Part shown: positions 1 to 32,540 of the stretch, piece by piece
How the letters are laid out: each line of letters opens with the position of its first letter
Numbering within the stretch: the first letter of the stretch is position 1
IMG/VR virus record: IMGVR_UViG_3300017726_000037
Location: 1-32,540 of that record
From: a virus
Strand: one strand, 5' to 3'
Length of the DNA: 32,540 nucleotides
Translations under genes and position numbers: made by a program
Notes under the pieces: generated by a model
Database searches by the model: none
Seen by the model: the letters and a program-made list of their open reading frames with translations, nothing else
Told to the model about the DNA's origin: nothing

Positions 1-89
1 AGGAAGACGTACTAAAACCCTATGACCCCCCACCTTGTCTAAAAAGCCTTTTTGCTATAAAATTTTTACAAAATTCAAAACGTATCGGT

Positions 90-1547
90 ATGCTATTAAA
101 AGAAGATCCAGAAACAGAAATTGTTAGGCTTGAATATAGATTAGCGAGACTGACTGCTTTAGAGGATGCAAAGAAAAACTTCCTATCTTTTGTAAGATTT
201 ATCTGGCCTCAGTTCATTTGTGGATATCATCATAGAGAGATGGCAAAGCAGTTTGAACGGTTAGTAAACAATGAATGTAATCGGATTATAATCAACATAC
301 CGCCTCGTCATGGTAAATCTGAATTAACTTCGTATTTATATTTAGCATGGTTAATGGGTAATAACCCTCAATCTAAAATTATTCAAGCAACCCACACAGG
401 TGAGTTAGCAGTTAGATTTGGTCGTAAGGTTAGAAACCTTATGGATAGTGATGCGTATAAAGAGGTATTCCCCGATGTAAAACTTGCGGCAGACAGCAAA
501 GCTGCAGGTAGATGGGAAACAAATAAGGGAGGGGAATACTTTGCCGCTGGTGTTGGTGGTGCGATGACAGGTCGTGGTGCTGACTTTTTGGTTATTGACG
601 ATCCGCATTCGGAGCAAGATGCTTTATCTGAAACGGCTATGGAAAAAGCGTATGAATGGTATACCTCTGGTCCTAGACAGCGTTTGCAACCAGGAGGAAA
701 AATACTTTTGGTTATGACCAGATGGTCTAAAGTTGACTTAACTGCTCAGGTATTAAATGACCAAGCAAAAGATAGTCGTGCGGATAAATGGGAGGTTATT
801 GAGTTTCCAGCATTGTTGCCTAGTGGCAAACCAACATGGCCTGAGATGTGGAAAGAAAAAGATCTTTTAGCTGTAAAAGCAGCTTTGCCTATATCTAAAT
901 GGAATGCTCAATGGCAACAAAACCCGACAGCAGAAGAAGGAGCGATATTTAAAAGAGAGTGGTGGAATGTATATGATGGTCAAACCATACCTGCGTTAGA
1001 TTATGTAATACAGAGTTATGATACTGCGTATACCAAAAAAGAGACAGCAGACTTTTCTGCAATCACAACGTGGGGAGTTTTTCGCCCAGATGAAGAAACA
1101 GAGGCTTTGATTTTAATTGACTCAAAGAAAGGAAGATGGGATTTTCCTGAGTTGAAAAAGGTCGCATATGAATTATATAAATATTGGAATCCAGATTGTG
1201 TTTTAATAGAGGCTAAGGCATCAGGTTTACCTTTGTCTCAAGAACTTCGCAGAACGGGTATTCCTGTAGTAAACTACTCACCTGGAGGAAGAAACTCTGG
1301 AACAGACAAAATTAGTAGAGCAAACGCAATTGCTCCTGTTTTTGAATCTGGAATGGTGTGGGCTCCAGATGAACCTTGGGCAGAAGAAGTTGTTGAAGAG
1401 ATGGCAGAATTTCCGTATGGTGACCATGATGACTTGGTTGATAGTGCGGTTCAAGCTGTTTTGCGGTTTCGTCAGGGTAACTTTATTGGTTTACCCTCTG
1501 ATTATATTGAGGACGAAATGGGTCCTCCACAATTTTCGTATTACTGA
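90..1547 (+). CDS. terL: Terminase large subunit (DNA-packaging ATPase/nuclease)
   Basis: The motor ATPase and nuclease that cuts concatemeric phage DNA and pumps it through the portal. The 485-residue product has a Walker A-type loop PPRHGKS (residues 71-77), Walker B FLVIDD (166-171), a coupling motif LLVMTRW (206-212), and an RNase H-fold nuclease with acidic residues D311, E374 and the GDHDDLVDS segment near 444-452. Length and domain order are normal for the family. The stop lies 3 bases before the next start. The 5' end is uncertain: there is no clear Shine-Dalgarno before the ATG at 90, and the same frame stays open upstream to base 3 with no stop and no ATG/GTG/TTG, so the true start may lie outside the window. 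No small-subunit terminase is visible in the window. Function is firm, start is not. Confidence 0.96.
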   Translation: MLLKEDPETEIVRLEYRLARLTALEDAKKNFLSFVRFIWPQFICGYHHREMAKQFERLVNNECNRIIINIPPRHGKSELTSYLYLAWLMGNNPQSKIIQATHTGELAVRFGRKVRNLMDSDAYKEVFPDVKLAADSKAAGRWETNKGGEYFAAGVGGAMTGRGADFLVIDDPHSEQDALSETAMEKAYEWYTSGPRQRLQPGGKILLVMTRWSKVDLTAQVLNDQAKDSRADKWEVIEFPALLPSGKPTWPEMWKEKDLLAVKAALPISKWNAQWQQNPTAEEGAIFKREWWNVYDGQTIPALDYVIQSYDTAYTKKETADFSAITTWGVFRPDEETEALILIDSKKGRWDFPELKKVAYELYKYWNPDCVLIEAKASGLPLSQELRRTGIPVVNYSPGGRNSGTDKISRANAIAPVFESGMVWAPDEPWAEEVVEEMAEFPYGDHDDLVDSAVQAVLRFRQGNFIGLPSDYIEDEMGPPQFSYY

Positions 1548-1550
1548 TAA

Positions 1551-3251
1551 ATGGAAAAATTAAACGCAGAAACTTTAGATACTTTATTTGCTAATCCAAA
1601 TGTGCAGAACATGGCAGAACTGATTGGTAAATATGAATCAAACAATACATATGATATAAATGTTGGTGGGGCTAAGATTGATGTAAGCGATGGCTCAGAA
1701 CACCCTCGACAGTTTGATGTAAAAACAAAAGAGGGTAAAAGTTCTGCAGCTGGTAGGTATCAGATTACTTCGACTACTTTTGATGATATTACTAGCCAAA
1801 ACCCTCAAGCAGAAATTACAGATTTTTCTCCTACATCGCAGAACAGAGCTTTTGTTTTGTTATTGCAAAGAAGAAAAGCTTTAGAGCCAGTTTTAAAGGG
1901 AGATTACACTACAGCAGTAGAGTTATTAGCAAATGAGTTTGCTTCTTTGCCTTCAGCTAAAACTAGTCAACCTAGAAAAGGTTATGATGAAGTCGAAAGA
2001 GATTTTGCTTTTTACAAACGTCCTAAAACAGTACCAAGAGAGTTAGCAGGAGATCTTCCTCCTGTTACTCCTGATCAAATAAAAAATGCTAATTTTAGTA
2101 TTTTTGGAGAATTTGTTTCTCCTGACAAAGAAGGTAAAAGTCCTACAGCTGGTAGATATCAACAACCGTCTAGCTATGATATTGCCGCGTCAATTCAATT
2201 TCTTTCGGAAAATCAAACTCAATCAGAGAAAGATTTTTTATCTGCCGTGAGCCTTGGTGCAATGCCCAAGAAAGGTAAGATTGACCCTTTGTCCAAGTTT
2301 CTTAAAGAGTCTGCTCAGGATGAGACTGCTTTAGATGTTATGGTCGAGAAACAAGAACCAAGGAACAAGGTTCCTTCTATAGAGGGAGTTAAGAAGTTTC
2401 AAGATGGGGGTGAGGTAGAATTCAAAATGCCTAGATCTGCTTTAGTTGGTGACGATATTATTGAGATACCTGAGAGTCAGCGTAAGGTTACTTTGACTAT
2501 GAATGATTTAGAAAACCTAGCAGATGCCGCGAGTTTTGTTCCTGTTCCTCAAGTTAAGTTTCCTGCGAAAGCAACTAAGGGAATTATGTCTCTTTTGAAG
2601 TTAGACAAGATAGATCCTTTTTTGAAAAAAGATTATTTAAAAAAGCTTGAAGGTGATTTAATTTCAAAAGAATTTGAAAGAATTGGGGTTGATGTGCCTT
2701 ACGTTCAAAATAAATTAGAAAAAGCAATGAAGGGTTATAAACCTAAGCCTGAGGGTAAATTAAGAATGGAATTATTGTCAGGAGAAATATATGAACCAGG
2801 AAGAACAGGTCCTTTTACTCCTGGTATGGATACTCTTCAAATGCAGGAGAGTCGCTTAAATAGTTTGTTAAAAAAAAGCGAAATTAAAAAAGATCCTTAT
2901 ATTTTGAATCCGATGGAATATTATCAACTTTCTAAAAAAGATAAAGATTTTATAAAAAACGTAGTTAGAAAAAACTATCCTGACTTTGGTGTAAAAAGCG
3001 ATGCATCTACCATGCGATCTCAAGCCATAGAACAATCTTATGATCGACTGCTTGATTTTGTTGGCAATAAATTGAGAAGAAAATCTATGGGAATTGGTAA
3101 ATTTTACAGAAAAAAAGAGATAGACGATCAGTTTACAGATACAGTTTTAAATGAAGCTTTGAAGGAAATTGATTCAATTACTAAGTTTAGAGATCAGAGA
3201 AAAGTAGATTCTGTGTTTTCTGAATTAATGAAAAAACAACAAGGAAGATAA
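1551..3251 (+). CDS. Lambda R-like transglycosylase domain fused to long uncharacterised C-terminus
   Basis: Residues about 8-150 resemble lambda R endolysin (a GH104 lytic transglycosylase). Matching landmarks, in order, are YES with likely catalytic Glu29, YDINVGG (34-40), HPR (51-53), AAGRYQ (66-71), DFSPTSQ (91-97) and ASLPS (131-135). The remaining roughly 415 residues are not an endolysin and I do not recognise them; they are charged and carry an FQDGGEV peptide (283-289) like those in other proteins of this window. An EGKSxxAGRYQ motif occurs twice (61-71 and 194-204). The gene sits between terminase and portal, far from the lysis cassette. This points to a virion-associated lysin that cuts peptidoglycan during entry rather than a lysis endolysin; that role is inferred. 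The start follows the terL stop by 3 bases. Confidence 0.8.
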   Translation: MEKLNAETLDTLFANPNVQNMAELIGKYESNNTYDINVGGAKIDVSDGSEHPRQFDVKTKEGKSSAAGRYQITSTTFDDITSQNPQAEITDFSPTSQNRAFVLLLQRRKALEPVLKGDYTTAVELLANEFASLPSAKTSQPRKGYDEVERDFAFYKRPKTVPRELAGDLPPVTPDQIKNANFSIFGEFVSPDKEGKSPTAGRYQQPSSYDIAASIQFLSENQTQSEKDFLSAVSLGAMPKKGKIDPLSKFLKESAQDETALDVMVEKQEPRNKVPSIEGVKKFQDGGEVEFKMPRSALVGDDIIEIPESQRKVTLTMNDLENLADAASFVPVPQVKFPAKATKGIMSLLKLDKIDPFLKKDYLKKLEGDLISKEFERIGVDVPYVQNKLEKAMKGYKPKPEGKLRMELLSGEIYEPGRTGPFTPGMDTLQMQESRLNSLLKKSEIKKDPYILNPMEYYQLSKKDKDFIKNVVRKNYPDFGVKSDASTMRSQAIEQSYDRLLDFVGNKLRRKSMGIGKFYRKKEIDDQFTDTVLNEALKEIDSITKFRDQRKVDSVFSELMKKQQGR

Positions 3252-5645
3252 ATGGCTAACCCATTTGACAATGTAGAAAAAGCCCTGACCCCTGATTCTT
3301 TACCAGAGGGTTCTGTAACCGTGGAGATAGAACAGACCACAGTTGCTCCAGAAGAAGTTAGTGTAATTCTTGATGATGAGGGTGGTGCAACGATAAACAT
3401 TGGTGAAGATGAGCAAGAAGAAGTTTCTAAGCATGAAGAGAACTTAGCAGAAAAAATTGAAGATTCTGACTTAACAAAAATTTCTTTAGACATTCTTGAT
3501 TTGTATGAGTCAGATATGTCGAGTCGTGATGCTTGGGAGAGGACGTATTCTGAGGGATTAAAGCTTTTAGGTTTCCAATATGAGGAAAAAACACAGCCTT
3601 TCCGTGGTGCATCAGGAGTTCATGTTCCGTTGATGACGGAAGCAATTATTCAATTCTGTGCTCAGGCTATGAAAGAGTTGATGCCATCTGGTGGTCCTGT
3701 AAGAACACAGGTTCTTGGCACTCCGACTAAGAAAAAAGAGCAACAAGCACAAAGAATCAAAGATTTTATGAATTACCAAATTACTACGGTGATGAAGGAG
3801 TACACTCCTGATTTTGACCAAATGTTGTGGTATGTAGGGTATGGTGGTTCAGCATTTAAAAAAGTTTATTACGATCAATCAAAAAAGAGATGCGTATCTC
3901 CATTTATTTTGCCAGATAACTTTGTAATGCCGTATGACGGTTCAAGCAATCCTTGGGAAAATGAGCGTTGTATTCAAATGGTTCAGATGTCTGGCAATGA
4001 GTTGAAAAAACGTCAGATTGATGGAACGTATAGAGATATAGATTTACAAGAAAAAACACCAGAAATTAGTTCAATTCGTGAAGCTGAAGATCGTGTATCT
4101 GGTATAGATAGTAATGAAAGTGATTCAAACTACACTTTATTAGAAGCTCATATTCATTTAGATTTACCTGGTTACGGTAACAAAGATGGATTAAAACTAC
4201 CTTACATTGTAACGATAGATAAAGATTCTGGAGAAGTTTTATCGATTTACAGAAACTATGACGAGGATGATGAAGATTTTACTCCACGACAGTATTTCAT
4301 ACATTATATGTTTTTACCTGGCCCTGGTTGCATGGGTTATGGTTTAGTTCACTTAATTGGAAACCTAACAAGATCGGCTACTGCCGCATTAAGACAATTG
4401 CTTGATGCAGGAACATTAGCTAATTTACCTGCTGGATTTAAGGCTAGAGGTTTACGGATTGCAGATGATGATAAACCGCTACAACCAGGAGAGTTTAGAG
4501 ATGTTGATGCGGGAGGAGGTGATCTACAATCTTCGTTATTACCTTTACCATACAAAGAGCCTAGTCAAACTTTGTTTACGTTGTTAGGGTTTTGTATTGA
4601 TATGGGTAGACGATTATCGAGCATTTCTGATATGCAAATTGGAGATGGTAATCAACAAGCAGCAGTAGGCACAACAATTGCAATGTTAGAAAGAGGTGCA
4701 ATGGTTATGTCTGGCATTCATAAAAGACTACACTACGCACAAAAACTAGAGTTTGAATTAATGGCAAATGCTTTTCATAGGTATTTACCTGATGAATATC
4801 CATATGATGTGCCTGGTGCAGATCGAACTATTTTAAAAGAAGATTTTGATGAAAGAATTGATATTATTCCTAGTGCAGATCCGAATATTTATTCTGCTGC
4901 TCAAAGAATTACAATGGCTCAAACTCAGTTGCAGTTAGCTCAATCAAATCCTCAGATTCATAATATTTATGAAGCGTATAGAAGAATGTATGAAGCTTTA
5001 GGAACAAGAGATATTGACATGATTCTTAAACCTGATGATACTCAAACTCCTGAACCAAAAGATCCCGCAACAGAAAATGCAGAGGCTTTAGATGGTAAAA
5101 ATTTAAAGGCTTTTCCTGGTCAAGACCACGATGCACACATTTTAAGCCATTTATTGCATTTATTAACTCCAATTGTTGCACAGAATCCTTTAGCTGCAAC
5201 TAATTTAACAAAACATATTTTAGAACACGTTAGATTAAAATCAGAAGAGATGACAGAGGCAGAGTTGTTTAAGCAATTTGGTGAAAATTATAAAAATGCA
5301 GTTTCACCAATAGAAAAAGAGTCTAGAGTAGCTAAAATGGTTGTACAGAATATGCAACAATTACGAGAAGCCTCTAATCAGTTGTCTGGTGTAGGGCAAC
5401 CTGACCCAATAGTTCAGCTAAAAGAGAAAGAATTACAACTTAGAGCACAGGATACTCAAAGAAAAGCACAAGAAAGTGCTCAAAAAATTAATTTACAAGC
5501 TCAAGATATGCAAATGGATGCTCAACTTGCTCAAGAAAGGCTTCAAACAACTAGAGATATAGCTGATGAAAAAGCAACTATTGCTAGGGAAAGAGTTGAC
5601 CAAGAAGAAAGAAAGCAAATAAGAGACAATAAAGGAGAAAATTGA
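3252..5645 (+). CDS. Portal protein (head-tail connector)
   Basis: A 797-residue portal of the large podovirus kind, forming the ring at one capsid vertex through which DNA enters and leaves. It has an acidic N-terminus, a core with FRGASGVHVPLMTEA and ELMPSGGPVRTQV (about residues 117-155), the WYVGYGGSAFKKVYYD segment near 195-210, and a long Gln/Glu/Arg/Lys-rich coiled coil from about 715 to the end. Position after terL and before the head-assembly genes is typical. The ATG immediately follows the preceding TAA. The extended C-terminal coiled coil resembles the barrel or helical extension of P22-type portals, but that comparison is by recall only. Confidence 0.92.
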   Translation: MANPFDNVEKALTPDSLPEGSVTVEIEQTTVAPEEVSVILDDEGGATINIGEDEQEEVSKHEENLAEKIEDSDLTKISLDILDLYESDMSSRDAWERTYSEGLKLLGFQYEEKTQPFRGASGVHVPLMTEAIIQFCAQAMKELMPSGGPVRTQVLGTPTKKKEQQAQRIKDFMNYQITTVMKEYTPDFDQMLWYVGYGGSAFKKVYYDQSKKRCVSPFILPDNFVMPYDGSSNPWENERCIQMVQMSGNELKKRQIDGTYRDIDLQEKTPEISSIREAEDRVSGIDSNESDSNYTLLEAHIHLDLPGYGNKDGLKLPYIVTIDKDSGEVLSIYRNYDEDDEDFTPRQYFIHYMFLPGPGCMGYGLVHLIGNLTRSATAALRQLLDAGTLANLPAGFKARGLRIADDDKPLQPGEFRDVDAGGGDLQSSLLPLPYKEPSQTLFTLLGFCIDMGRRLSSISDMQIGDGNQQAAVGTTIAMLERGAMVMSGIHKRLHYAQKLEFELMANAFHRYLPDEYPYDVPGADRTILKEDFDERIDIIPSADPNIYSAAQRITMAQTQLQLAQSNPQIHNIYEAYRRMYEALGTRDIDMILKPDDTQTPEPKDPATENAEALDGKNLKAFPGQDHDAHILSHLLHLLTPIVAQNPLAATNLTKHILEHVRLKSEEMTEAELFKQFGENYKNAVSPIEKESRVAKMVVQNMQQLREASNQLSGVGQPDPIVQLKEKELQLRAQDTQRKAQESAQKINLQAQDMQMDAQLAQERLQTTRDIADEKATIARERVDQEERKQIRDNKGEN

Positions 5646-11787: not shown

Positions 11788-12059
11788 TGTCCCTTAAAGA
11801 ATGGTTTGGTAAAGGTTCTAAAGGAGATTGGGTAGATATCGGAGCTCCTAAAAAAAAAGGGAAATATCAAGCCTGTGGACGCAAGTCAACCAAGAAAAGC
11901 AAACGTGGTTATCCGAAATGTGTGCCAAGAGCAAAAGCAAAATCAATGACTGCGGCACAAAGAAAGTCAGCAGTACAAAGAAAAAGAGCTGCTGGAAATC
12001 CTGGTGGTAAACCTAGAAATGTAGCAACAATTGTTAAAAATAAAAGGAGAAAAACATGA
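11787..12059 (+). CDS. 90-aa conserved basic protein (MSLKEWFGKGSKGDW type)
   Basis: 90 residues starting MSLKEWFGKGSKGDWVDIGA, with a central CGRKSTKKSKRGYPKCVP segment whose two Cys (about residues 31 and 47) could be a partial metal or disulfide site, and a Lys/Arg-rich tail. I recall close relatives in many marine phages, including cyanophage and pelagiphage contigs; function unknown. It starts in a TAATG overlap and ends in an ATGA overlap with the next gene, so it is tightly coupled to its neighbours. Confidence 0.78.
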   Translation: MSLKEWFGKGSKGDWVDIGAPKKKGKYQACGRKSTKKSKRGYPKCVPRAKAKSMTAAQRKSAVQRKRAAGNPGGKPRNVATIVKNKRRKT

Positions 12060-12235
12060 ACGTAAGTCCAAGAAAAAGAATGGCTATGGGAACAAAAATG
12101 GCTAAAGGAAAAGCTAAGGGTGGTCCTGTGAAGACTAAAATGGCTAAGGGTGGTTCTGTTAAAAAAATGATGGGTGGTGGCATGATGAAAAAAGGTTACG
12201 CTAAAGGTGGTGCAGTAAGAAGAAAGATGGGTTAA
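12056..12235 (+). CDS. 59-aa Lys/Met/Gly peptide with three AKGGxV units
   Basis: 59 codons starting in a 4-base ATGA overlap, with AAAGGAGA upstream. The product is almost wholly Lys, Met, Gly and Arg, with KAKGGPV, MAKGGSV and YAKGGAV units separated by Met/Lys-rich spacers. Low complexity would hide it from many gene finders, but both junctions (ATGA and TAATG) and the ribosome site support it. The unit matches the KGG/DGG peptide found in longer proteins of this window. Function unknown. Confidence 0.72.
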   Translation: MNVSPRKRMAMGTKMAKGKAKGGPVKTKMAKGGSVKKMMGGGMMKKGYAKGGAVRRKMG

Positions 12236-12975
12236 TGGCTTATCTTATAAGCAATATTCCATACACTAAGGTTTGGATTAGAAAAGAATTTACACATGGA
12301 CATCAAAAATACCACGGTGAGTTTGTTCACGGATTGGCGGTGGCTGTTACAACAATGCCAGACCGATGTCTCAGCTTCCAAATTATCTTTACAGGATGTG
12401 AAACGGATGAAACAGAGGAACCTAACATTACTGGAGGGGCAATGTGGGCTAGAATGCCAATCACAGCCCTCTGTGGGGACATCACATTCAATGATTGGCC
12501 TGAAAGAATGGAAACACACCTTGCTCAACCGTGGGATTGTCCATCGCATCACCACACAATTTTGGAACTTCAGAGGTGTAAACCATCTCCCTGGTTATGT
12601 AAGATTGACGGAGATTTCTATAGTGGACGGTATTTATTCACTATCGACTATACCGAAAGTGAAATCGCAGATTGTCCAGCCCAGCACAAGCAGAGTCATG
12701 TTATTGTGTTAACTGAAGGAAAATGGGAAGGCAATATGGTCGCTTTACCGAACAACAGGGTTAGAGTTACTTCCCCTGCATTATGGGCTACTGGAGAAGG
12801 TGCTCCAGACTTTCGCCCTAGTCAACATACGCATTGTGCAGAACAGGATGACAGTTACATGGATCCTGATGTAACATTTAATAATCTCTATAGTGAGGAA
12901 GAAAATGGCAATCTCAAGAAAACAAATGCCAAAACAACTAAAAGGAAACAGAAAGCCAATACCAAAAGGAAATAA
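12235..12975 (+). CDS. Conserved 246-aa marine phage protein of unknown function
   Basis: 246 residues starting MAYLISNIPYTKVWIRKEF in a TAATG overlap. Landmarks are HGEFVHGLAVAV, LSFQIIFTGCETDE, GGAMWARMPITALCGD, HLAQPWDCPSHHH, CKIDGDFYSGRYLFT, EIADCPAQHKQSHV and LPNNRVRVTSPALW. I recall this highly conserved protein from T7-like cyanophages and other marine podoviruses, where no role is established. It is rich in His, Cys and Trp, unlike its basic neighbours. The last about 25 residues (ENGNLKKTNAKTTKRKQKAN and on) overlap the next gene by 71 bases in another frame and look like an overprinted extension. Confidence 0.8.
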   Translation: MAYLISNIPYTKVWIRKEFTHGHQKYHGEFVHGLAVAVTTMPDRCLSFQIIFTGCETDETEEPNITGGAMWARMPITALCGDITFNDWPERMETHLAQPWDCPSHHHTILELQRCKPSPWLCKIDGDFYSGRYLFTIDYTESEIADCPAQHKQSHVIVLTEGKWEGNMVALPNNRVRVTSPALWATGEGAPDFRPSQHTHCAEQDDSYMDPDVTFNNLYSEEENGNLKKTNAKTTKRKQKANTKRK

Positions 12976-18261: not shown

Positions 18262-18771
18262 GTGGCTCATTTTGCAGAATTAGATTCTAACAATATTGTT
18301 CTAAGAGTTGTCGTTGTAGGTAACGAAGATACTGCGGATGCAAAAGGCGTTGAAAAAGAATCTATCGGTCAAGCACATTTAGAAAAAGTTTTAGGTGGCA
18401 CATGGAAGCAAACAAGTTATAACGCAAAGATTCGTAAACATTATGCAGGAAAAGGATTTACTTACGATGCTTCTCGTGATGCTTTTATAGCACCTAAACC
18501 ATTTAACTCATGGGTTTTGAATAATGATACTTGTGTGTGGGAAGCACCAAAAGCATATCCTACAGACGGTGGAATTTATCAATGGAATGAAGAAAAGTTA
18601 GATTGGATTCTTCAGGAGGTAGACTTGAATGTTTCTTTAACAGGAGTTCAAGTATCTGCACAAGTTTCTTCTATGTTTACAATTGAGCCTACGGATATTG
18701 AAGTTAGCGTGGAAGGTAGTTCTTTACAAACGCATTTAAGTTTTAGTGCTAGTAATGTGAGCATTACATAA
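18262..18771 (+). CDS. Conserved marine phage tail-region protein with repeat-like C-terminus
   Basis: 169 residues from GTG, with AGGAGG 5 bases upstream. Residues 1-120 (MAHFAELDSNNIVLRVVVVG, LGGTWKQTSYN, RKHYAGKGFTYD, APKPFNSWVLN, CVWEAPKAYP) are a module I recall from very many marine and cyanophage contigs, of unknown function. The last 45 residues (DLNVSLTGVQVSAQVSSMFT and on) are different: degenerate beta repeats like the NVTVTGV-x-A-AVG-VTI units of the protein at 24918. This looks like a module fusion. Ends in a TAATG overlap with the giant LamG gene. Confidence 0.72.
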   Translation: MAHFAELDSNNIVLRVVVVGNEDTADAKGVEKESIGQAHLEKVLGGTWKQTSYNAKIRKHYAGKGFTYDASRDAFIAPKPFNSWVLNNDTCVWEAPKAYPTDGGIYQWNEEKLDWILQEVDLNVSLTGVQVSAQVSSMFTIEPTDIEVSVEGSSLQTHLSFSASNVSIT

Positions 18772-21700
18772 TGAGTATGCGAAAAAAATATTCAGGAAGT
18801 GTTGTTAGGGCAAATCCTGTTGTTCCAACAGAGGATTCAGCATCAGGTATTTGGACGTTAGATCAACAAAACCAAAATCAAAAAAGAGGCACATGGCCTT
18901 TTGTTGGTGATCCGAACTTCAAAGATACCGTTTTACTTTTACATGGTGATACGAGTCAAACACCTTCTAGTGAAAGTCAATCCGCAGATAACCAAGAGGT
19001 TCGTTTAATTGGAGATGCGAAAGCAACTAATTGGAATCCTTTTAATTTGCCAGAAGGGTATTGGAGTGTTGCTTTTGATGGGTCTTCTCATATTGATGGT
19101 ACATTGTCTTCTGCGATTGGCACAGGTGATATGACAGTAGAGTTTTGGTTTAATCCTACAAGTTTTTATAATTACATTGCCATGTTTGCCATAAGTGCAG
19201 GAAGCAATAGAGGTGCTGGATTTAATATAGGAACAGAAAGTACTAATTCTGGACAATTAAAATTTGTTGATACAGGGTTAGGCTCTAATCTTACAGTTAA
19301 TAGTCAACTTGAATTAGGTGTATGGAAGCATATTGCTTGTACTAGATCAGGAACTACGGTTCGACTTTTTGTTAATGGAACTGAAGTGGGTTCTTATACT
19401 GATGGTCAAAACTGGACAGGCACAAGTTTTGCTGTGGGGGGTAGATCTGATGATGGAACAGAAGAGTGTACAGGTTACATAGCTAATTTAAATCTTGTGA
19501 TCGGTACTGCAAAGTATACAACCAGCTTTTCTAAACCAACTTTTCCAATCACGGCTCATGTAAATACAAAGTTACTTACTTGCCAATCAAACAGCTTTGT
19601 AGATAAATCAGTAGATTCAAGAAGTATATCTTTAGATGGCACACCAAGAGTAGAAACATTCTCACCTTTCTCATACACACCAATTGCTGTTGAAAATAAT
19701 TACGGTAGTTATTATTTTGATGGTAGCACTACACAGGTTGCTTATCCCTCAAATGTGAACGAGTTTACCTTTGGAACAGGAGATTTTCATTATGAGTTTT
19801 GGCTATACCCTACTGGTGGTTCTGGAGCTCAAAGAACTTTAATAGGAAGAGATAGCACAGGTGATGCTAACATTAATTATATTTATCTAACCACTGGAAA
19901 TCATTTTAACTGGTATTTAACTGGTTCTATAAATTTAGGTAGTTCGACACTTATACATTTATATTCTTGGTATCACTTAGTGGTTTCTAGAAAAGATGGC
20001 ACATTACGTTTGTTTGTAAACGGAGAGCAAAAAGCTTCTGCTGCAAATACAACAAGTATGATAGATCCTGTTCACACAACTATTGGTTCAGGAGATACTG
20101 ATGGTACACAACATCCTTTTACTGGTTACATTTATAATGTAATTGTAAAGAGTAAAGGTGTAGATAGTGTTACCGTTCCAACAAAACCAACAGAACTAAC
20201 TTTAACCGAAGGTGAGAACTCCGTTTACTTTGATGGTAGTGGGGATTATTTAAAATTAACTAATACTAATTTCACAGACTTTGATTTTGGAACTGGACCA
20301 TTCTTAATTGAAGGTTGGATATATTACACTACTTTAGGAACTACAATACTTGGTCAAACTGGTTGGGGCAATGTTTTTCAAAGGAACATCACTAGCAATG
20401 TGTTTCAATTTTATCAAGCTGCTTCAGCAGGAGATAGTGGAGCTTATTGGATAACAGGAACGACAACTCTTCAGACATATAAATGGTATCATTTTGCTCT
20501 TCAAAGAGATAATTCTGGAAATTTAGATTTATGGGTTAATGGATCAAGAGATGCAACAAATACCACTTATGCTTCAACAGAAATGAAGTTTCATTCGGGT
20601 AAAGGTGATATAACAGTAGCTTATTGGAATGGTGGTGTTTCTGCTGGTGTAAATTACATTTCAAATTTAAGAATAAAAAATTCTGCTGTTTACACATCTG
20701 GAGCAACAATAACTGTTCCAACAGCACCCTCTCCAGCAACAACTGGAGTGTTACTGGCCTGTGCTTCTAGATACATTGAAGATAGATCTCCAGCGAACCA
20801 TGATATAGCAGCGTATGGAAATGCTGTTGTTTCAGGATTTAATCCTTTTAATGAGGGATATTGGAGCGTTCATTTAGATAGCACTTCTGACAAGATTCAA
20901 GTGGCTACCGCATCAGCTTTACCTTCTGGTACAGCAGCTAGAACAATTGAGTTTTGGGCAAAGGTTTCAGGAGCTCCTGATAGCACACAATACTTTTTTG
21001 GTTATGGAAACAATTCTGCGGGCGGTAATTTTAGTTGGGCAAGAAATGGTTCTGGAAAATTCGCATTCTTTGGTTACAACGGATATGATTGGGATACAAC
21101 AGTAGATGTTCCATTAACAAAATGGTTTCATGTAAGTTTAACCTATAATGGCTCGCAAATTAAATTTTATTTAGACGGAAGTTTAAGTCATACGCAGTCG
21201 TATAGTGGATCAACTGCTTCTGTTTCTAATTTATATATAAACCAAGAGGCTAGTGGATCTGGTTTTGCTTTTGCTAATTTAAAAATTAGCAATTTTATTA
21301 TGTATTCTTCAGTAGTAAGAACAGGAGACTTTACAGCACCTACTGTTCCTGAAACAGATACAACAAACGTGGTTCTTTTAGTTGCTCAATCTAGTAGGCC
21401 CATAGATAACTCTTCTAACTCAAATACAGTTACTCTTACAGGGGCTACTATTGATGAAGACATCCCATTCACACTACCATCGAGACAAACAAAACTTCTT
21501 GCTGTACACAATAATCAAGATGTAAATAATAATTCTTTTCAAGATTCTTCTTTGTTAAAAAACTTTATTACTAGAACAGGGAACGTGGCTCAAGGTACGT
21601 TTAGTCCGTTTAGTGCGGAAGAGGGGTATTGGAGTTATTACTCAGATGGCGATGATGCTTTTACTGTTGCAGCATCGTCAGAGCATACATTAGATGCTGA

Positions 21701-23375
21701 TTTTACCGTGGAATTTTTTGTGTATCCAATAGAAACTTTTGGTCATCACATTTATTTGAGTGCAATCAACGGTAGTGCTGATTTGCAAATTGGTTACAAG
21801 TCTGGAGATAGGTATTTACACGTTTGGTTAAGTGGTGGAGGTAACAAAATATTGGGAGCTTCATCAGCAAATTCTTTAATACGAAATCAATGGAATCATG
21901 TGGTATTTTGTAGATCAAGTGGAACCATTGCATTGCTGAGTAATGGTAATAGGCTCGACACCGCATCAGATACTCAAACTATGAATTTCTCAGGATTAAA
22001 TATTGGAAGATATTCAAGTGGTGGCTATGATCAAATTCAATATATGTCTAATGTTCGTATTGTCAAAGGGTCTTGTGAGTATGATATATCTCAAACTACA
22101 TATACTCAACCATCATCCCCACTAACAGCTATTACAAATACAAAATTACTTACTTTACAGAGTAACAGGTTTGTTGACAACTCTACTTCAGGTCATGTTT
22201 TGTCGGTTGTTAACACACCAAAAATAACGTCATTTGCACCCTTTGCACCTCGTAGATCGTACAGTAAAGAAGTGGTAGGGGGTAGTGCGTATTTTGATGG
22301 AACTGATGACAAGCTTACAGTGGCTTATGGGGAGAGTATTGGAGCAGGTGATTTTACTATCTCTGCATGGGTTTACAGAACATCTAGTGGAACATATCCT
22401 GTGATTTTAGATACAAGATCAAGTGATGCAGATACTAAACCAGTAATTTATACAGATGGTTCTAGCTTATATTATTATACTGCTGGAGGTATTCGTATTA
22501 CTGGTTCTAGTGCAATTAACAATAATGAATGGATTTTTGTTAGATTAGTAAAAGAATCAAATGTTACAAAACTTTTTGTAAATGGAACGCAAGTTGGTAG
22601 TGATTATTCAGATAGTAATAACTATACGCCAACAAACGATTGGGAAATAGGTAGTAGGCATACTGATCAGCACTACTGGCCTGGATATATTTCAAACCTT
22701 CAAGTTGTTTTAACTGCTTTAGATGGAACTTCTGTGCCAACAGCACCTTTTACATCTGATGCAAACACAAGATTACTTCTAAACTCTACTGATGGTGCTG
22801 TGATAGACAACACAGGAAAAAATAATCTTGAGACAGTTAATGATGCAAAAGTATTTCCTTATACTAAAAAATTTGGTAACGGATCTATGTACTTTGATGG
22901 TACTGGTGATAAAATGATTCTCCCTCATTCTGAATTACAACAACTTAATACTGGGCAATTCACAGTAGAATTATTTGTATATTTTACTGCTACTGACGCC
23001 AGACAAGGATTTTTTGGGAATGATGGGGGTTGGTATTTTCAAATTTATGACGGTGAATTAGAATTTGCTCTAGGTGTTAGTGCGATTATAGAAAGAACAT
23101 TTTCACATAGTCTTAATCAGTGGTATCACTTAGCTGCTACTAGGGATTCGTCAAATGATGTTCGTTTGTTCATTGATGGCACTCAACAAGGAGCAGTTGT
23201 AAATAGTACTGCTAACTTGCGTCATAATTCTAATGTATTTCATATTGGAAATATCGGTCCAAATACTACTAGACCTTTTAAAGGGGGGTATATGGATGAG
23301 ATTAGAATAACCAAAGGTGTTGCTAGATACATTTCAGACTTTACCGCCCCAACTAGAGCGTTTAAAAATAGGTGA
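18771..23375 (+). CDS. Giant fibre with seven LamG/concanavalin-like domains
   Basis: 1534 residues. After an N-terminal stretch containing ASGIWTLDQQNQNQKRGTWP it is built of seven LamG-like units, whose first strand (YFDG, AFDG, YWSY and variants) starts near residues 97, 313, 483, 696, 952, 1172 and 1372. Each unit has a G(T/A)GDF(T/H)(V/I)E(F/A)W strand, a W(Y/K/F/N)H-type strand and a LFVNG turn, and most are joined by a linker with LLxxxSxxxxDxS and SPF. This jelly-roll array is a glycan-binding design, so it is the best candidate receptor-binding fibre. No enzyme motif seen. The start shares a base with the previous TAA; an ATG at 18777 is also possible. Confidence 0.86.
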   Translation: MSMRKKYSGSVVRANPVVPTEDSASGIWTLDQQNQNQKRGTWPFVGDPNFKDTVLLLHGDTSQTPSSESQSADNQEVRLIGDAKATNWNPFNLPEGYWSVAFDGSSHIDGTLSSAIGTGDMTVEFWFNPTSFYNYIAMFAISAGSNRGAGFNIGTESTNSGQLKFVDTGLGSNLTVNSQLELGVWKHIACTRSGTTVRLFVNGTEVGSYTDGQNWTGTSFAVGGRSDDGTEECTGYIANLNLVIGTAKYTTSFSKPTFPITAHVNTKLLTCQSNSFVDKSVDSRSISLDGTPRVETFSPFSYTPIAVENNYGSYYFDGSTTQVAYPSNVNEFTFGTGDFHYEFWLYPTGGSGAQRTLIGRDSTGDANINYIYLTTGNHFNWYLTGSINLGSSTLIHLYSWYHLVVSRKDGTLRLFVNGEQKASAANTTSMIDPVHTTIGSGDTDGTQHPFTGYIYNVIVKSKGVDSVTVPTKPTELTLTEGENSVYFDGSGDYLKLTNTNFTDFDFGTGPFLIEGWIYYTTLGTTILGQTGWGNVFQRNITSNVFQFYQAASAGDSGAYWITGTTTLQTYKWYHFALQRDNSGNLDLWVNGSRDATNTTYASTEMKFHSGKGDITVAYWNGGVSAGVNYISNLRIKNSAVYTSGATITVPTAPSPATTGVLLACASRYIEDRSPANHDIAAYGNAVVSGFNPFNEGYWSVHLDSTSDKIQVATASALPSGTAARTIEFWAKVSGAPDSTQYFFGYGNNSAGGNFSWARNGSGKFAFFGYNGYDWDTTVDVPLTKWFHVSLTYNGSQIKFYLDGSLSHTQSYSGSTASVSNLYINQEASGSGFAFANLKISNFIMYSSVVRTGDFTAPTVPETDTTNVVLLVAQSSRPIDNSSNSNTVTLTGATIDEDIPFTLPSRQTKLLAVHNNQDVNNNSFQDSSLLKNFITRTGNVAQGTFSPFSAEEGYWSYYSDGDDAFTVAASSEHTLDADFTVEFFVYPIETFGHHIYLSAINGSADLQIGYKSGDRYLHVWLSGGGNKILGASSANSLIRNQWNHVVFCRSSGTIALLSNGNRLDTASDTQTMNFSGLNIGRYSSGGYDQIQYMSNVRIVKGSCEYDISQTTYTQPSSPLTAITNTKLLTLQSNRFVDNSTSGHVLSVVNTPKITSFAPFAPRRSYSKEVVGGSAYFDGTDDKLTVAYGESIGAGDFTISAWVYRTSSGTYPVILDTRSSDADTKPVIYTDGSSLYYYTAGGIRITGSSAINNNEWIFVRLVKESNVTKLFVNGTQVGSDYSDSNNYTPTNDWEIGSRHTDQHYWPGYISNLQVVLTALDGTSVPTAPFTSDANTRLLLNSTDGAVIDNTGKNNLETVNDAKVFPYTKKFGNGSMYFDGTGDKMILPHSELQQLNTGQFTVELFVYFTATDARQGFFGNDGGWYFQIYDGELEFALGVSAIIERTFSHSLNQWYHLAATRDSSNDVRLFIDGTQQGAVVNSTANLRHNSNVFHIGNIGPNTTRPFKGGYMDEIRITKGVARYISDFTAPTRAFKNR

Positions 23376-23901: not shown

Positions 23902-24104
23902 TTAGCATAGCTTTTTGGGTAGCTACTTTAGTCCCAAATGTAGGCCAGTACTATTGTAAGTTACAATGGGTAGAAAGAGAGTTGTGTTATTACTGGTGTG
24001 CTAATACTAGAAGAGGATTTAACTGGTTTGAATCAAAAACGGTAAACGGTTGTAAATTAAATAAATTGTTTTATAAAGTAGAAAAGGAAAAATCTAGTGC
24101 TTAA
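23898..24104 (+). CDS. 68-aa Cys-containing small protein (lysis region)
   Basis: 68 residues from an ATGA overlap. The N-terminus MISIAFWVATLVPNVGQYYC is hydrophobic enough to be a short signal or membrane segment; four Cys (20, 30, 34, 52) could make disulfides, pointing to an exported protein. The rest is aromatic-rich then basic. It overlaps the next gene by 8 bases. A small exported Cys protein beside holin and endolysin might be part of a spanin pair, but no lipobox is present, so this stays open. Confidence 0.58.
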   Translation: MISIAFWVATLVPNVGQYYCKLQWVERELCYYWCANTRRGFNWFESKTVNGCKLNKLFYKVEKEKSSA

Positions 24105-24534
24105 TTTAATATCAGGGTTATTACCAATAGGCGAAAAGCTTGTAGACAAGCTGATCCCCGATCCACAGGCAAAACAGAAAGCTCTTCAACAGCTAAAAAA
24201 AATGGAACAAGACGGGAGTCTTAAACGCATGGAAGCTGAGTTTGCTGATAAAGATAGCGCAAGACAACGTGAGATGGCTATCTCTACCAGCGAACATAGT
24301 CCCTGGTTAAATAAAATTATTACCAGTTTACTCGCCCTTGGGATTGTAGGACTTGCTTTTTCTTTATTTGCTGTCATTTTATTTCTTGAGGTGACTCCTG
24401 CAAATAAAGATATTTTAATTTTCTTGTTAGGTAATTTGACCACGTTAGTCGGGTTGGTCTGTTCTTATTATTTTGGGAGTTCGGTAGGTAGTAAAGATAA
24501 AACTGAAGAAATAAAGGGGTTAATGAAAAAATGA
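24097..24534 (+). CDS. Holin, 3TM (gene-transfer-agent-like) type
   Basis: 145 residues from GTG with AAAAGGA upstream, overlapping the previous gene by 8 bases. N-terminus LPIGEKLVDKLIPDPQAKQK, a central DKDSARQREMAISTSE, then two strong membrane helices (about 75-98 and 105-127), ending YYFGSSVGSKDKTEEIKGLM. These match the 3TM holin family (gene-transfer-agent release type), where IPDP, SARQRE and YYFGSS-GS are diagnostic. It forms inner-membrane holes that start lysis. Followed at once by the peptidase gene. Confidence 0.83.
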   Translation: MLNLISGLLPIGEKLVDKLIPDPQAKQKALQQLKKMEQDGSLKRMEAEFADKDSARQREMAISTSEHSPWLNKIITSLLALGIVGLAFSLFAVILFLEVTPANKDILIFLLGNLTTLVGLVCSYYFGSSVGSKDKTEEIKGLMKK

Positions 24535-24914
24535 TGGATTGGAATATGAGCACTTATTTTACTCAATATGAGTTTAAATGTTCGCATACTGGACAATGTG
24601 ACATGAACCCAGATTTTATAAGTAAATTAAACGAGCTCCGTACAGCTTATGGTAAGCCTATGAAGATAACCTCTGGTTACAGAAGTACAAGTCATCCAAT
24701 AGAGCGGAAAAAACAAACTCCTGGAGCACACACTACAGGTCAAGCTGCTGATATAGCAGTATCAAGAGAAGATGCTTTTCACTTGTTATCTCTTGCACTA
24801 TCAAAAGGTTTTACAGGGATAGGAATACAACAAAAGGGCTCAGGCCGCTTTATTCATTTAGACACTTTAGAAAATTCGGAGGGTAGACCCAGACCTACGA
24901 TCTGGTCTTATTAA
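24531..24914 (+). CDS. M15 peptidase endolysin (D-Ala-D-Ala carboxypeptidase-like)
   Basis: 127 residues overlapping the holin stop (ATGATGG; two adjacent ATG starts are possible). Residues 45-56 ITSGYRSTSHPI, GAHTTGQAADIAV (66-78) with zinc ligands H67 and D74 in the HxxxxxxD spacing, GFTGIGIQQKG (93-103), and FIHLD with the third ligand H109. C-terminal PRPTIWSY is the usual ending of the peptidase M15A group. It cuts the peptidoglycan peptide stem; with the holin it makes the lysis pair. No signal peptide, so it needs the holin for access. Confidence 0.9.
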   Translation: MMDWNMSTYFTQYEFKCSHTGQCDMNPDFISKLNELRTAYGKPMKITSGYRSTSHPIERKKQTPGAHTTGQAADIAVSREDAFHLLSLALSKGFTGIGIQQKGSGRFIHLDTLENSEGRPRPTIWSY

Positions 24915-29999: not shown

Positions 30000-31814
30000 A
30001 TGGAAGAGGGGATTATGGGGCTTAACCCTCAAATGGGAATGCCTCAAACACAGAACATGAACCAAGAACCAAGGCCAGAGGATATTCAAGCCTTTGAGCA
30101 AATGAGACAGCAAGTCTCTCCTAAAGAGTTTTCGGATACAACACTTGATGGTGCTATGGCAGAAGATCCAGAGCTAGTTGGTGCTTTCAAAGAAATCTTG
30201 CAAGGTGCTGAGATGCCTCAGGAATTAGTTATGGCTTTGAAGCAATTAATTCAAGCTGTATTAAGTGATCCTTCTATGTATCCTCAGTTGGTTCAAGCTT
30301 TAATAGAGTTAGGGGCAGATGCGGAGGACATACCACCTCAGTTTGATCCATCTTTCGTATCTACTCTAGCTCTCGCCCTTGAAGAAGTAAATGTTTCTCA
30401 GCCTATGCCAGAAGAAGTTCAAGGTTTTTCTAAAGGTGGGGTGGTTTCTATGAAACCAATTGCTAATTATATGGCATCCTTAGGTAGAGGTGGAGATACC
30501 ATGTTGGCTCACATTAATCCTGACGAGGCTCGTTTATTAAAAGCTCTTGGAGGAGCAGGAACAATTAATCCGCACACAGGTTTGCCTGAGTTTTTAATAA
30601 AGAAATTATTTAAGGGTGTTAAAAATGCGGTAAAGGGTGTGGTTAAGGGAGTGAAAAAATTTGCTAAATCAAAAGTGGGTAGATTAGTTATTGGTGCGGC
30701 TTTAGCTTATTTTGGTGGACCTATGGCTGTTAAAGCTCTAGGAGTTAAAAGTGCGGCTCTTCAAGCTGCAACCGTAGCTTTTGTTGGAAGCGCAGGTTCT
30801 GGATTTGTTGCAGGAGATGGAGTTAAAAATTCCGTAACTAATGGTTTAAAATCAGCCGCTGTAGCTGCTGTGGTAGCTCCTGGAATTAATGCAGCAATGG
30901 GAGATCCCTCGCAAGGTACTTTCTTAGAAAGGTATCAAGCAGGATTTAAACCAGAAAGTGGTTTCTTAGGAGGTAAAGAAAGTCTTTTGAAGCAACAAGA
31001 GGCAGCTCCAATAGAAACAAGAACAATTGGACAAGCTGGGCAAGTTGCTCCAACGACACCAGAAGGTGAACTTTTTTCAGGCATGGGAGAGTTTAGAGAG
31101 AATGTTGCTCAAGTAGGTGATCTAGGTACTAGAAATCTTGCTCAAGACACCAGCACTATGACTGATTTTTCGTATGATATAACTGGTGATGGAATAACTG
31201 GAACTCCTCCTACTGATTTTACTTCTGGATCTAAACAGTTGTCACTTGCACGGCCAAGTCTTGCAGACAAATATCCAAGTTTTGCAGAAAAAGCGATGCC
31301 TGGTTCACAACCTAGCACTAGTTTTGGTGATTATTTAAGAGAAATTGGTAGCGGTATTAGAAAATTAGGACCAGGAGGTCAAGATTTTGGAGAAGGTCTT
31401 AGTCAAATAGGAAGTGCTGTAGCTACTAAACCATATACAACGGCTGCACTAGGCTTAGGTGCTCTTCAAGCTGGAGGATACTTTACTCCTGAAGCACCAT
31501 CTCCGTATGATTTATATGGTATAGATATGAGAAGAGGTTATGACTTATATAATAAAGATCCAAGCAAATATATGATTCCACTCCCAAGACCTGGAATACG
31601 ATATGCAGATGGAGGTATAGCTCAAAACTTTCCTAGAAAAAACGGAGCTATAAATGGACCAGGAACTGGAACATCCGATGACATTCCTGCAATGTTATCT
31701 GACGGAGAGTTTGTATTTACTGCTAAAGCAGTTAGAAATGCTGGAGGCGGTGACCGTAAAGAAGGTGCAAATAAAATGTATTCGATGATGAAATCTTTAG
31801 AGAGGATGAGCTAA
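30000..31814 (+). CDS. Internal virion / ejection protein candidate
   Basis: 604 residues with AGAGAGG upstream; an ATG at 30015 is a possible later start. Acidic helical N-terminal third (MPQELVMALKQLIQAVLSDP and neighbours), then FSKGGVVSMKPIANYMASLG and GRGGDTMLAHINPDEARLLK, a basic amphipathic stretch (LIKKLFKGVKNAVKGVVKGV, about 200-220), a glycine-zipper-like hydrophobic region (about 230-300), a long polar part, and a C-terminal YADGGIAQNF plus GTGTSDDIPAMLSDGEFVFT domain. Amphipathic and zipper segments suit membrane insertion during DNA ejection; the C-terminal GTSD-IPAMLSDGEF unit is recurrent in marine phage virion proteins by recall. No tape-measure features. Confidence 0.7.
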   Translation: MEEGIMGLNPQMGMPQTQNMNQEPRPEDIQAFEQMRQQVSPKEFSDTTLDGAMAEDPELVGAFKEILQGAEMPQELVMALKQLIQAVLSDPSMYPQLVQALIELGADAEDIPPQFDPSFVSTLALALEEVNVSQPMPEEVQGFSKGGVVSMKPIANYMASLGRGGDTMLAHINPDEARLLKALGGAGTINPHTGLPEFLIKKLFKGVKNAVKGVVKGVKKFAKSKVGRLVIGAALAYFGGPMAVKALGVKSAALQAATVAFVGSAGSGFVAGDGVKNSVTNGLKSAAVAAVVAPGINAAMGDPSQGTFLERYQAGFKPESGFLGGKESLLKQQEAAPIETRTIGQAGQVAPTTPEGELFSGMGEFRENVAQVGDLGTRNLAQDTSTMTDFSYDITGDGITGTPPTDFTSGSKQLSLARPSLADKYPSFAEKAMPGSQPSTSFGDYLREIGSGIRKLGPGGQDFGEGLSQIGSAVATKPYTTAALGLGALQAGGYFTPEAPSPYDLYGIDMRRGYDLYNKDPSKYMIPLPRPGIRYADGGIAQNFPRKNGAINGPGTGTSDDIPAMLSDGEFVFTAKAVRNAGGGDRKEGANKMYSMMKSLERMS

Positions 31815-32540
31815 TGGCATCTGATAATAGGATGTTTGGAGGTCAGTCTACTCAACCTGATCCAGAACTACAAGCTAGGAATATTGGTCTATTAGAAAGT
31901 TTTATAGATCAATATTACGGAAGATTCAAAGATGTACCAGACGAAAAGGGAGGAACTACAAGAGAGTTTGTTCCGCCAACGGAGGGCATTCAAGATCTCC
32001 CTGCAATACAAGCCGCACCCGCGGATTATTTTACAAATGAAGCTTCTTTAGGTTTAGGGAGAGAATTAAGAGAAGGTAGAGGTATTGGTGGTTATAAGAA
32101 CTACCTAGATATGGGTATTGATGATGTAGCACAAGCCAGACCTTTATTTAGAGAGGGTATTCAAGCTTTACGAGATTCTAACAAAGCTTATGATCCTTCT
32201 GATGTTCAAAGATATATGGATCCGTATCAACAACAAGTTGTAGATGCGACTATGAAAGAAATGAACCGCCAAGGAAATGTAGCTAGAACTCAAGCCGCGG
32301 CAGGTGCTGTTGGGGCAGGGGCTTTTGGTAGCACGAGAGAAGGAGTTCAGAGAGCAGAGTTGGACAGGGGTTTAGCGGATGTTAAGTCACGAGCTTTAGC
32401 TGATTTATATTCTAAAGGATATTCTCAAGCTTTAGATGCATCAAGACAAGACTTTGCAAACCAACAAGCAAGACAAGCAAACATGGCATCTGGTTTAGGT
32501 CAGTTTGGTCAAGGCTTTCAAGGTCTTGGTCAGTCTTTAC
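31814..32540 (+). CDS. Internal virion protein, truncated by window end
   Basis: Open through the right edge (242 complete codons visible), starting in a TAATG overlap. Landmarks are YMDPYQQQVVDATMKEMNRQ, RTQAAAGAVGAGAFGSTREG and VKSRALADLYSKGYSQALDA, a Gln/Ala-rich helical pattern I recall from ejection or internal core proteins of marine podoviruses, next to genes like the one before. The N-terminal 100 residues are polar. The gene is probably much longer than what is seen. Confidence 0.7.
   Translation, partial: MASDNRMFGGQSTQPDPELQARNIGLLESFIDQYYGRFKDVPDEKGGTTREFVPPTEGIQDLPAIQAAPADYFTNEASLGLGRELREGRGIGGYKNYLDMGIDDVAQARPLFREGIQALRDSNKAYDPSDVQRYMDPYQQQVVDATMKEMNRQGNVARTQAAAGAVGAGAFGSTREGVQRAELDRGLADVKSRALADLYSKGYSQALDASRQDFANQQARQANMASGLGQFGQGFQGLGQSL

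Follow-up and report, generated by a model that had tools for sequence, protein, structure and literature searches.

The window analyzed in this work is a whole stretch of viral DNA of 32,540 nucleotides (IMG/VR record IMGVR_UViG_3300017726_000037, positions 1 to 32,540). Between the genes for the large terminase subunit (TerL) and the portal protein it carries a gene for a protein of 566 amino acids, referred to below as the slot gene, whose coordinates and neighbours are as given in the preliminary description of this DNA (Table 1). Three bases separate the end of TerL from the ATG of the slot gene, the portal gene begins one base past the slot stop codon, and the segment around the putative ribosome binding site of the portal gene is kept in a short relative, L010 (L numbers designate related loci or contigs). 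The lysis genes ascribed earlier to the window, a holin and an M15 peptidase, have been found by profile matches (phrog_3427 and phrog_894) and by synteny with phage DSL-LC04, in which the corresponding pair is annotated as holin and M15A-like peptidase. This pair (24097-24914) is located about 21 kb from the slot gene, which sits in the packaging block; standalone endolysins are short and encoded in a lysis cassette with a holin, and the slot protein is neither. The slot gene is also not encoded in the gp14-gp15-gp16 block of ejection genes, which in the window extends from 30000 onward and in the L011 contig continues with proteins of 346, 767 and 1275 amino acids in a T7-like order (their gp14/gp15/gp16-like names were assigned from order and size). 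Named phages with related portals are DSL-LC04 (55.7% identity), Pelagibacter phages HTVC027P and HTVC023P and phage 023Pt_psg01; in all four, as in the window, GroES follows the portal. Elsewhere in the window a protein of 1534 amino acids (18771-23375) has several stretches matching baseplate or virion structural PHROGs, and a large DSL-LC04 protein placed like it is annotated as concanavalin A-like lectin/glucanase. A protein of 246 amino acids (12235-12975), encoded within the virion gene block, matches phrog_3704 (labelled ferredoxin; E 9e-32).

Table 1 Features of the slot gene and of the window around it
Feature	Position	Strand	Basis or remark
Terminase large subunit TerL	3..1547	+	phrog_38 E 8e-118; Pfam Terminase_6N/6C
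Slot gene, 566 amino acids, ATG to stop	1551..3251	+	between TerL and portal; stop codon abuts portal ATG
Lambda-R-type lysozyme/transglycosylase domain, residues 5-150	1563..2000	+	profile, sequence, model, fold match
Diverged cassette A (enzyme)	1600..2170	+	50-72% nucleotide identity to L003 per 100-base bin, with gaps
Glu29 codon, presumed catalytic acid	1635..1637	+	kept in 36/36 aligned relatives
Linker, residues 204-289, QQPSSYDIAA... to FQDGGEV	2160..2417	+	related to linkers behind SLT and PF06737-like slot enzymes
[FYM]xxGGx[VAI] motif (FQDGGEV, residues 283-289)	2397..2417	+	motif scan
C-terminal module	2418..3251	+	nearly all missing in L009/L010; other sequence after linker in L011
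Diverged cassette B, C-terminal part	2600..2890	+	60-73% nucleotide identity to L003 per bin, with gaps
AAGGA, putative portal ribosome binding site, in last slot codons	3241..3245	+	seen in the sequence
SU10-type portal protein	3252..5645	+	PF23899 E 9e-10; phrog_1216 E 1e-42
Holin candidate	24097..24534	+	phrog_3427 E 2.8e-8
Endolysin/peptidase, M15-type by synteny with DSL-LC04	24531..24914	+	phrog_894 E 1.7e-31
First ejection-block protein, tape-measure-like	30000..31814	+	~50-residue GRGGDTxLA domain in common with other phages' slot proteins; GG motif twice
gp14/gp7-like ejection protein, runs off the window	31814..32540	+	phrog_4287 DNA ejection protein E 1.1e-3; homologue in L098

The N-terminus of the slot protein matches phrog_17230 (E 8e-23, residues 5-150), phrog_90, labelled endolysin (E 4e-22, residues 12-163), and the lambda lysozyme sequences of 1am7/3d3d (phmmer E 8e-12); Pfam-A gave no accepted match anywhere in the 566 residues. 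An AlphaFold2 model of the domain, built from an alignment of 36 relatives (pLDDT 88.6), has lambda lysozyme 3d3d as its best PDB match (E 8e-7, TM 0.75/0.80, rmsd 2.0) and "Internal protein D" of Bordetella phage BB8 as its best match among predicted viral structures. By sequence and predicted fold, residues ~5-150 are a lambda-R-type lysozyme domain. Glu29, which we take to be the equivalent of lambda R Glu19 and hence the presumed catalytic residue, is present in 36/36 aligned relatives, so that the observation named in the preliminary description as fatal to its proposal, a Glu29 not conserved in relatives, is excluded; Tyr34, His51, Pro52, Gly68, Tyr70, Gln71, Gln97, Ser132 and Pro134 are equally invariant. 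By analogy with lambda R the chemistry would be that of a transglycosylase. The remaining ~415 residues, described earlier as a tail of no recognised kind, indeed have no accepted family match, the hits to DUF669, UvsY, phrog_19596 and phrog_7823 (E 0.02-0.15) having been rejected as below the cut-off. A model of the full-length protein was set aside (pLDDT 40, alignment too shallow), and functions of the linker and tail are therefore proposed here by inference.

Relatives of the domain were collected from 80 loci, of which 11 apparent near-copies were removed (L141, L142, L151, L152, L153, L156, L157, L189, L195, L199 and L201); L003, L010, L011, L094 and L095 were added to the domain set before the count of ORF sizes and the construction of a tree of 74 rows. 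The preliminary description had started from the premise that lambda-R-like enzymes are normally standalone and had proposed a search for homologues with the same fusion. The domain lies in ORFs of at least 260 amino acids at 58/74 loci and in closed ORFs below this size at 14/74, which overturns the premise: its fusion to a large protein is common, and what is unusual here is the location and the modularity. A search with the whole slot protein found four related loci only. In the tree the domain of the window (row L001, 100% identical over the domain) groups with those of other slot proteins (support 97/97), and this group is nested in a clade of 17 rows (99/93), all from ORFs of 276-1604 amino acids; short lambda-R-like endolysins form a separate group, and support for the deeper forks around the slot group is weak (83/21, 91/88). 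At three loci of the 17-row clade (L143, L146 and L148) the gene bearing the domain follows gp14-like and gp15-like genes and precedes a fibre-like gene, which is the position of T7 gp16; we assigned these gp14-, gp15-, gp16-like and fibre roles from order, size and sequence features. The nearest relatives of the domain thus appear mostly to head large podoviral ejection proteins in a T7 gp16-like position.

In the 83 contigs with both genes the interval between TerL and portal ranges from nothing to 6.1 kb (<100 bases in 10 contigs, 100-500 in 16, 500-1000 in 5, 1-2 kb in 7, 2-4 kb in 20 and >4 kb in 25). More distant isolates (SU10, CRP-902, Pag-Yong1 and QDWS535) have no gene there and GB2A has a tRNA only. 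The scan for enzymes covered 113 slot ORFs, with duplicates and cut ORFs counted in, while the slot ORFs of 21 further contigs entered the interval census alone. In 12 distinct contigs the slot protein was found to begin with a peptidoglycan enzyme. The enzyme is of lambda-R type in seven of them (window, L001, L003, L007, L009, L010 and L011), PF06737-like in three (L017, L018 and L222) and of SLT type in two (L013 and L226). For L017 and L018 the PF06737 match falls short of the Pfam cut-off (E 2e-4 and 8e-4, respectively), and both proteins are touched by phrog_90 as well (E 3e-7 and 4e-7). No peptidoglycan enzyme was found in the remaining scanned slot ORFs; since these are the majority, entry lysis cannot be the general role of the slot, and a position for cargo describes it better than the place of an entry-lysin gene.

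Other domains and sequence features have been noticed in the slot. The DSL-LC04 slot protein contains a PcfJ domain (PF14284, E 2.7e-10, over the cut-off); run on 16 records, the Pfam PcfJ model matched that of DSL-LC04 alone and nothing in the record of the window or of L011. The word PcfJ does not occur in the main text of the DSL-LC04 paper (PMC10611076). The SLT-type slot protein of L013 (L013:1775-5980) matches phrog_342, internal virion protein with endolysin domain (E 1e-30, residues 3-332); its DarB-like phrog match was rejected as a sign of anti-restriction, as it covers the SLT domain only (residues 4-148). The middle of this protein may correspond to an ADP-ribosyltransferase, and at its end stands an ELQSD motif of a kind present in polyvalent proteins. 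The slot proteins of L013, L017 and L018 have near-identical last ~15 residues, GG(L/M/I)VDKPLYDRA(M), on otherwise different bodies, which look like a C-terminal tag. In 14 contigs (L112-L115, L118-L122, L124-L126, L135 and L137) the slot is filled by a protein of 157-158 amino acids starting with MEK(Q/G)TVIHITI, whose gene abuts or slightly overlaps the portal gene. The slot of HTVC027P is occupied by gp41 and gp42. In the L081 record (G013), in which the slot gene is absent, a free-standing SLT protein is encoded on the minus strand (11825-12157; open frame of 227 amino acids, E 1.6e-26), upstream of TerL as judged by coordinates. In the portions of the literature available to us (PMC11288001 included) we met with no account of the slot between TerL and portal, of its linker or of the GG motif, and nothing on the slot gene was found in those of the HTVC027P (PMC12753301) and HTVC023P-type (PMC9599517) papers.

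Comparison of slot genes points to the linker, and not the tail, as the part found behind every one of the three enzyme types. When a profile of the linkers from the SLT and PF06737-type proteins was run against all ORFs of the loci then gathered, its first non-self matches were the lambda-R-type proteins of L011 and L003 (E 8e-4 and 1e-3), the linker of the window itself giving E 0.19 only. Comparison of profile with profile gave a probability of 93.9% (E 1.5e-7, a single comparison). The reverse, lambda-type profile found the others weakly (L017 E 0.021, L018 E 1.6), and a joint profile including the copy from the window matched L222 with E 7e-26 and L226 with E 0.37, where the resemblance was judged by eye. 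At the nucleotide level two cassettes of the slot gene have diverged from L003 (Table 1) in surroundings that have not: bins of TerL at 1000-1500 are 91-98% identical, those at 2200-2590 90-97% and those at 2900-3300 95-98%, with the flanks of cassette A at 85-98%.

The C-terminal module was proposed earlier as a possible anchor of the enzyme inside the head. In L009 and L010, however, the slot protein stops at the linker (276 amino acids), and in L011, which is 96% identical to the window in TerL and 93% in the portal, the linker is followed by a different body of ~1,100 amino acids (1400 in all); the anchor is for this reason not supported and the tail seems to be an exchangeable module. The last bases before the portal gene in L009/L010, ACAAGGAAGATAAATGG, are identical to those of the window, as would be left by an in-frame deletion that kept the putative ribosome binding site of the portal. 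A search for relatives of the module of the window gave only its near-copies and L003, and among slot ORFs no match was significant (best non-self E 0.027). The C-terminus of L011 is related to the C-termini of L016 (E 4e-7), L020 and L017, and these three match the DSL-LC04 segment that holds the PcfJ domain.

Several observations connect the slot with the ejection apparatus. None of 10 ejection-block proteins from L011, DSL-LC04, HTVC027P, HTVC023P and psg01 matched a hydrolase PHROG or family, the 1275- and 767-amino-acid proteins of L011 among them. A stretch of ~50 amino acids of the first ejection-block protein of the window recurs, with E values between 6e-16 and 2e-8, in 12/113 slot ORFs. 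Nothing in these 113 ORFs was matched by capsid, TerL, stabilisation, lectin-like, gp14-like or gp16-like queries, and the gp15-like ejection protein gave one weak match (E 0.008). The slot protein of the window is not among the 12, and the GG motif, [FYM]xxGGx[VAI], is all that it has in common with the ejection-block proteins. In 37 slot proteins this motif occurs 54 times against 3.6 in shuffles, a partly circular enrichment since the motif was defined by eye on slot proteins; it is also raised in the portals (26 vs 5.8), terminases (12 vs 1.1) and downstream proteins (41 vs 5.7 shuffled) of the same set. In five genomes there are nine motifs in 4,563 residues of slot proteins (shuffles 0.4; three of the five proteins, L010 and L011 having none), 14 in 10,898 residues of ejection proteins (2.5) and seven in 46,420 residues of 201 other proteins (7.8). 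The ejection-block count is the more independent part, yet ejection proteins are related by descent, and the tests ignore relatedness (binomial p 4e-9, Fisher p 7e-9); they leave out the portal (five proteins, five motifs, one each) and TerL (five proteins, no motif). As to position, 13/65 complete slot ORFs without an enzyme have the motif among their first 30 residues (4.0 expected) and 20/75 have it among their last 30 (3.8 expected), relatedness again being ignored; L001, L002, L005 and L008 as copies, cut ORFs and ORFs of <200 amino acids were dropped from this count. The motif is placed at protein ends, at module borders and in ejection proteins. A different sequence, GSPPEGE, occurs at residue 267 of the L011 slot protein (L011:1784-5986), near the place expected for the GG motif, and at residue 97 of the gp15-like ejection protein of the same phage (L098:2901-5204), and in none of the other pieces examined.

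We consider it probable that the slot gene is a modular cargo gene and that its product is an enzyme borne by the virion and used at entry. Its lysozyme-type domain (residues ~5-150) would be packaged in the head with the ejection proteins, exit on infection by way of the portal and short tail, and cleave peptidoglycan, which would let the DNA channel cross the wall. In this lineage a hydrolase of the T7 gp16/SU10 gp20 type appears to have left the ejection block for the slot between TerL and portal. Such a relocation has a precedent in the gp16 hydrolase domain, which is reported to be swappable to the gp15 homologue (PMC8954989). The linker occurs behind enzymes of three families and is on that account the strongest candidate for a part that docks to the ejection apparatus. 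The C-terminal ~280 residues would be an exchangeable module that probably serves as a passenger for injection or to fill the head, and not as a required anchor. The core of the earlier interpretation, a virion enzyme used at entry, is thereby retained by inference from the ejection-type clade, BB8 internal protein D, the ejection-block proteins devoid of hydrolase and the domain and motif that slot proteins have in common with the ejection block; its premise of a standalone enzyme and its head anchor are not. Position alone proves little, as many virion structural genes lie near portal genes.

That the protein is instead a second endolysin, acting late with the holin and M15-type peptidase of the window and only incidentally fused, we regard as unlikely. 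Lambda R, the closest solved structure, is an endolysin, and the second-best family, phrog_90, bears that label; against this, the gene lies in the packaging block, far from the lysis pair, the tree places the domain with large proteins and apart from the short lambda-R-like endolysins, and other slots hold no enzyme that was found. Still harder to accept is the idea that the protein has a structural part in head assembly or at the portal and keeps its lysozyme fold as a relic without enzymatic role, although the portal gene is directly adjacent and its likely ribosome binding site is embedded in the slot gene: Glu29 and eight further residues (Tyr34, His51, Gly68, Tyr70, Gln71, Gln97, Ser132 and Pro134) are kept in 36/36 relatives, and two other enzyme families have taken the same place, which suits selection for activity.

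A stronger contender, to which we give somewhat less than even chances, overlaps the entry-enzyme reading and differs in what the main job is: the protein would be mainly an injected multi-domain effector, a polyvalent protein, with the lysozyme part as its pass through the wall and the C-terminal module acting in the cytoplasm. The slot proteins of relatives are large and varied, DSL-LC04 has PcfJ (PF14284 E 2.7e-10), the C-terminus of L011 is related to C-termini matching the PcfJ segment, and polyvalent proteins with lysozyme domains, encoded near virion genes of portal-terminase phages, have been published (PMC5512222, as far as its available text goes). The C-terminal module of the window has no recognised domain, however, L009/L010 do without it, and the Pfam PcfJ model matches neither the record of the window nor that of L011.

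Going beyond the entry enzyme itself, we tentatively suggest, with rather low confidence, that the slot of HTVC027P/DSL-LC04-type podoviruses is a dedicated cargo locus, whose hypervariable product is loaded into the head via [FYM]xxGGx[VAI], acting as a short recurring signal, and injected, and in which wall-cutting enzymes of three families and various effectors are swapped at the motif. If so, the GG motif would serve either to target the product to the head or as a cleavage site between enzyme and passenger. Ejected wall enzymes and injected multi-domain proteins are already known; the slot bears on the way in which phages select, load and exchange such cargo. Phages 92-96% identical in TerL/portal with slot proteins of 276, 561, 566 and 1400 amino acids constitute a natural series of deletions and swaps, and the repeated motif in common with ejection proteins can be tested directly, in this aquatic phage group, as a putative cargo tag or processing site.

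Among known systems, lambda R endolysin has the same fold (TM 0.75/0.80) and the conserved Glu and Tyr/Gly pattern seen in the aligned relatives, but it is a standalone lysis enzyme, and short proteins like it stand apart in the tree. BB8 internal protein D, a model entry of 775 residues likened to the slot protein by its domain alone, has a lambda-R-type domain that is 36-39% identical. T7 gp16, in the part of the literature at hand (PMC8954989), is likewise a larger protein that begins with a peptidoglycan enzyme and is ejected from the head of a podovirus, and in L143, L146 and L148 a lambda-R-type domain heads the protein in the gp16-like position; the enzyme of the window, in contrast, is encoded by a separate gene between TerL and portal, and no gp16-type C-terminal part was recognised in the slot protein. 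The Kuravirus SU10, which has a portal of the same family, encodes gp20, described in the accessible text of PMC9509320 as an ejection protein with transglycosylase activity released with the ejection proteins; unlike the slot protein, gp20 is a 260-amino-acid protein of SLT type (E 1.5e-25) located in the ejection block, and the SU10 TerL gene adjoins the portal gene with no gene between them. Polyvalent proteins (Iyer et al. 2017) are large, mosaic and composed of several domains, which in some of them include a lysozyme; they occur in portal-terminase phages and have been proposed to be injected (PMC5512222, available portions, in which the TerL-portal slot, the common linker and the GG motif were not found). 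The slot as a cargo position fits this concept; the slot protein of the window differs in having one recognised domain, the lysozyme, and no metallopeptidase domain was found in it, while by the measure of several unrelated domains DSL-LC04 (PcfJ) and L011 (PcfJ-related C-terminus) fit better. With ejection proteins the slot protein has in common an enzyme domain related to theirs, as seen from the 17-row clade (99/93) and from BB8 internal protein D.
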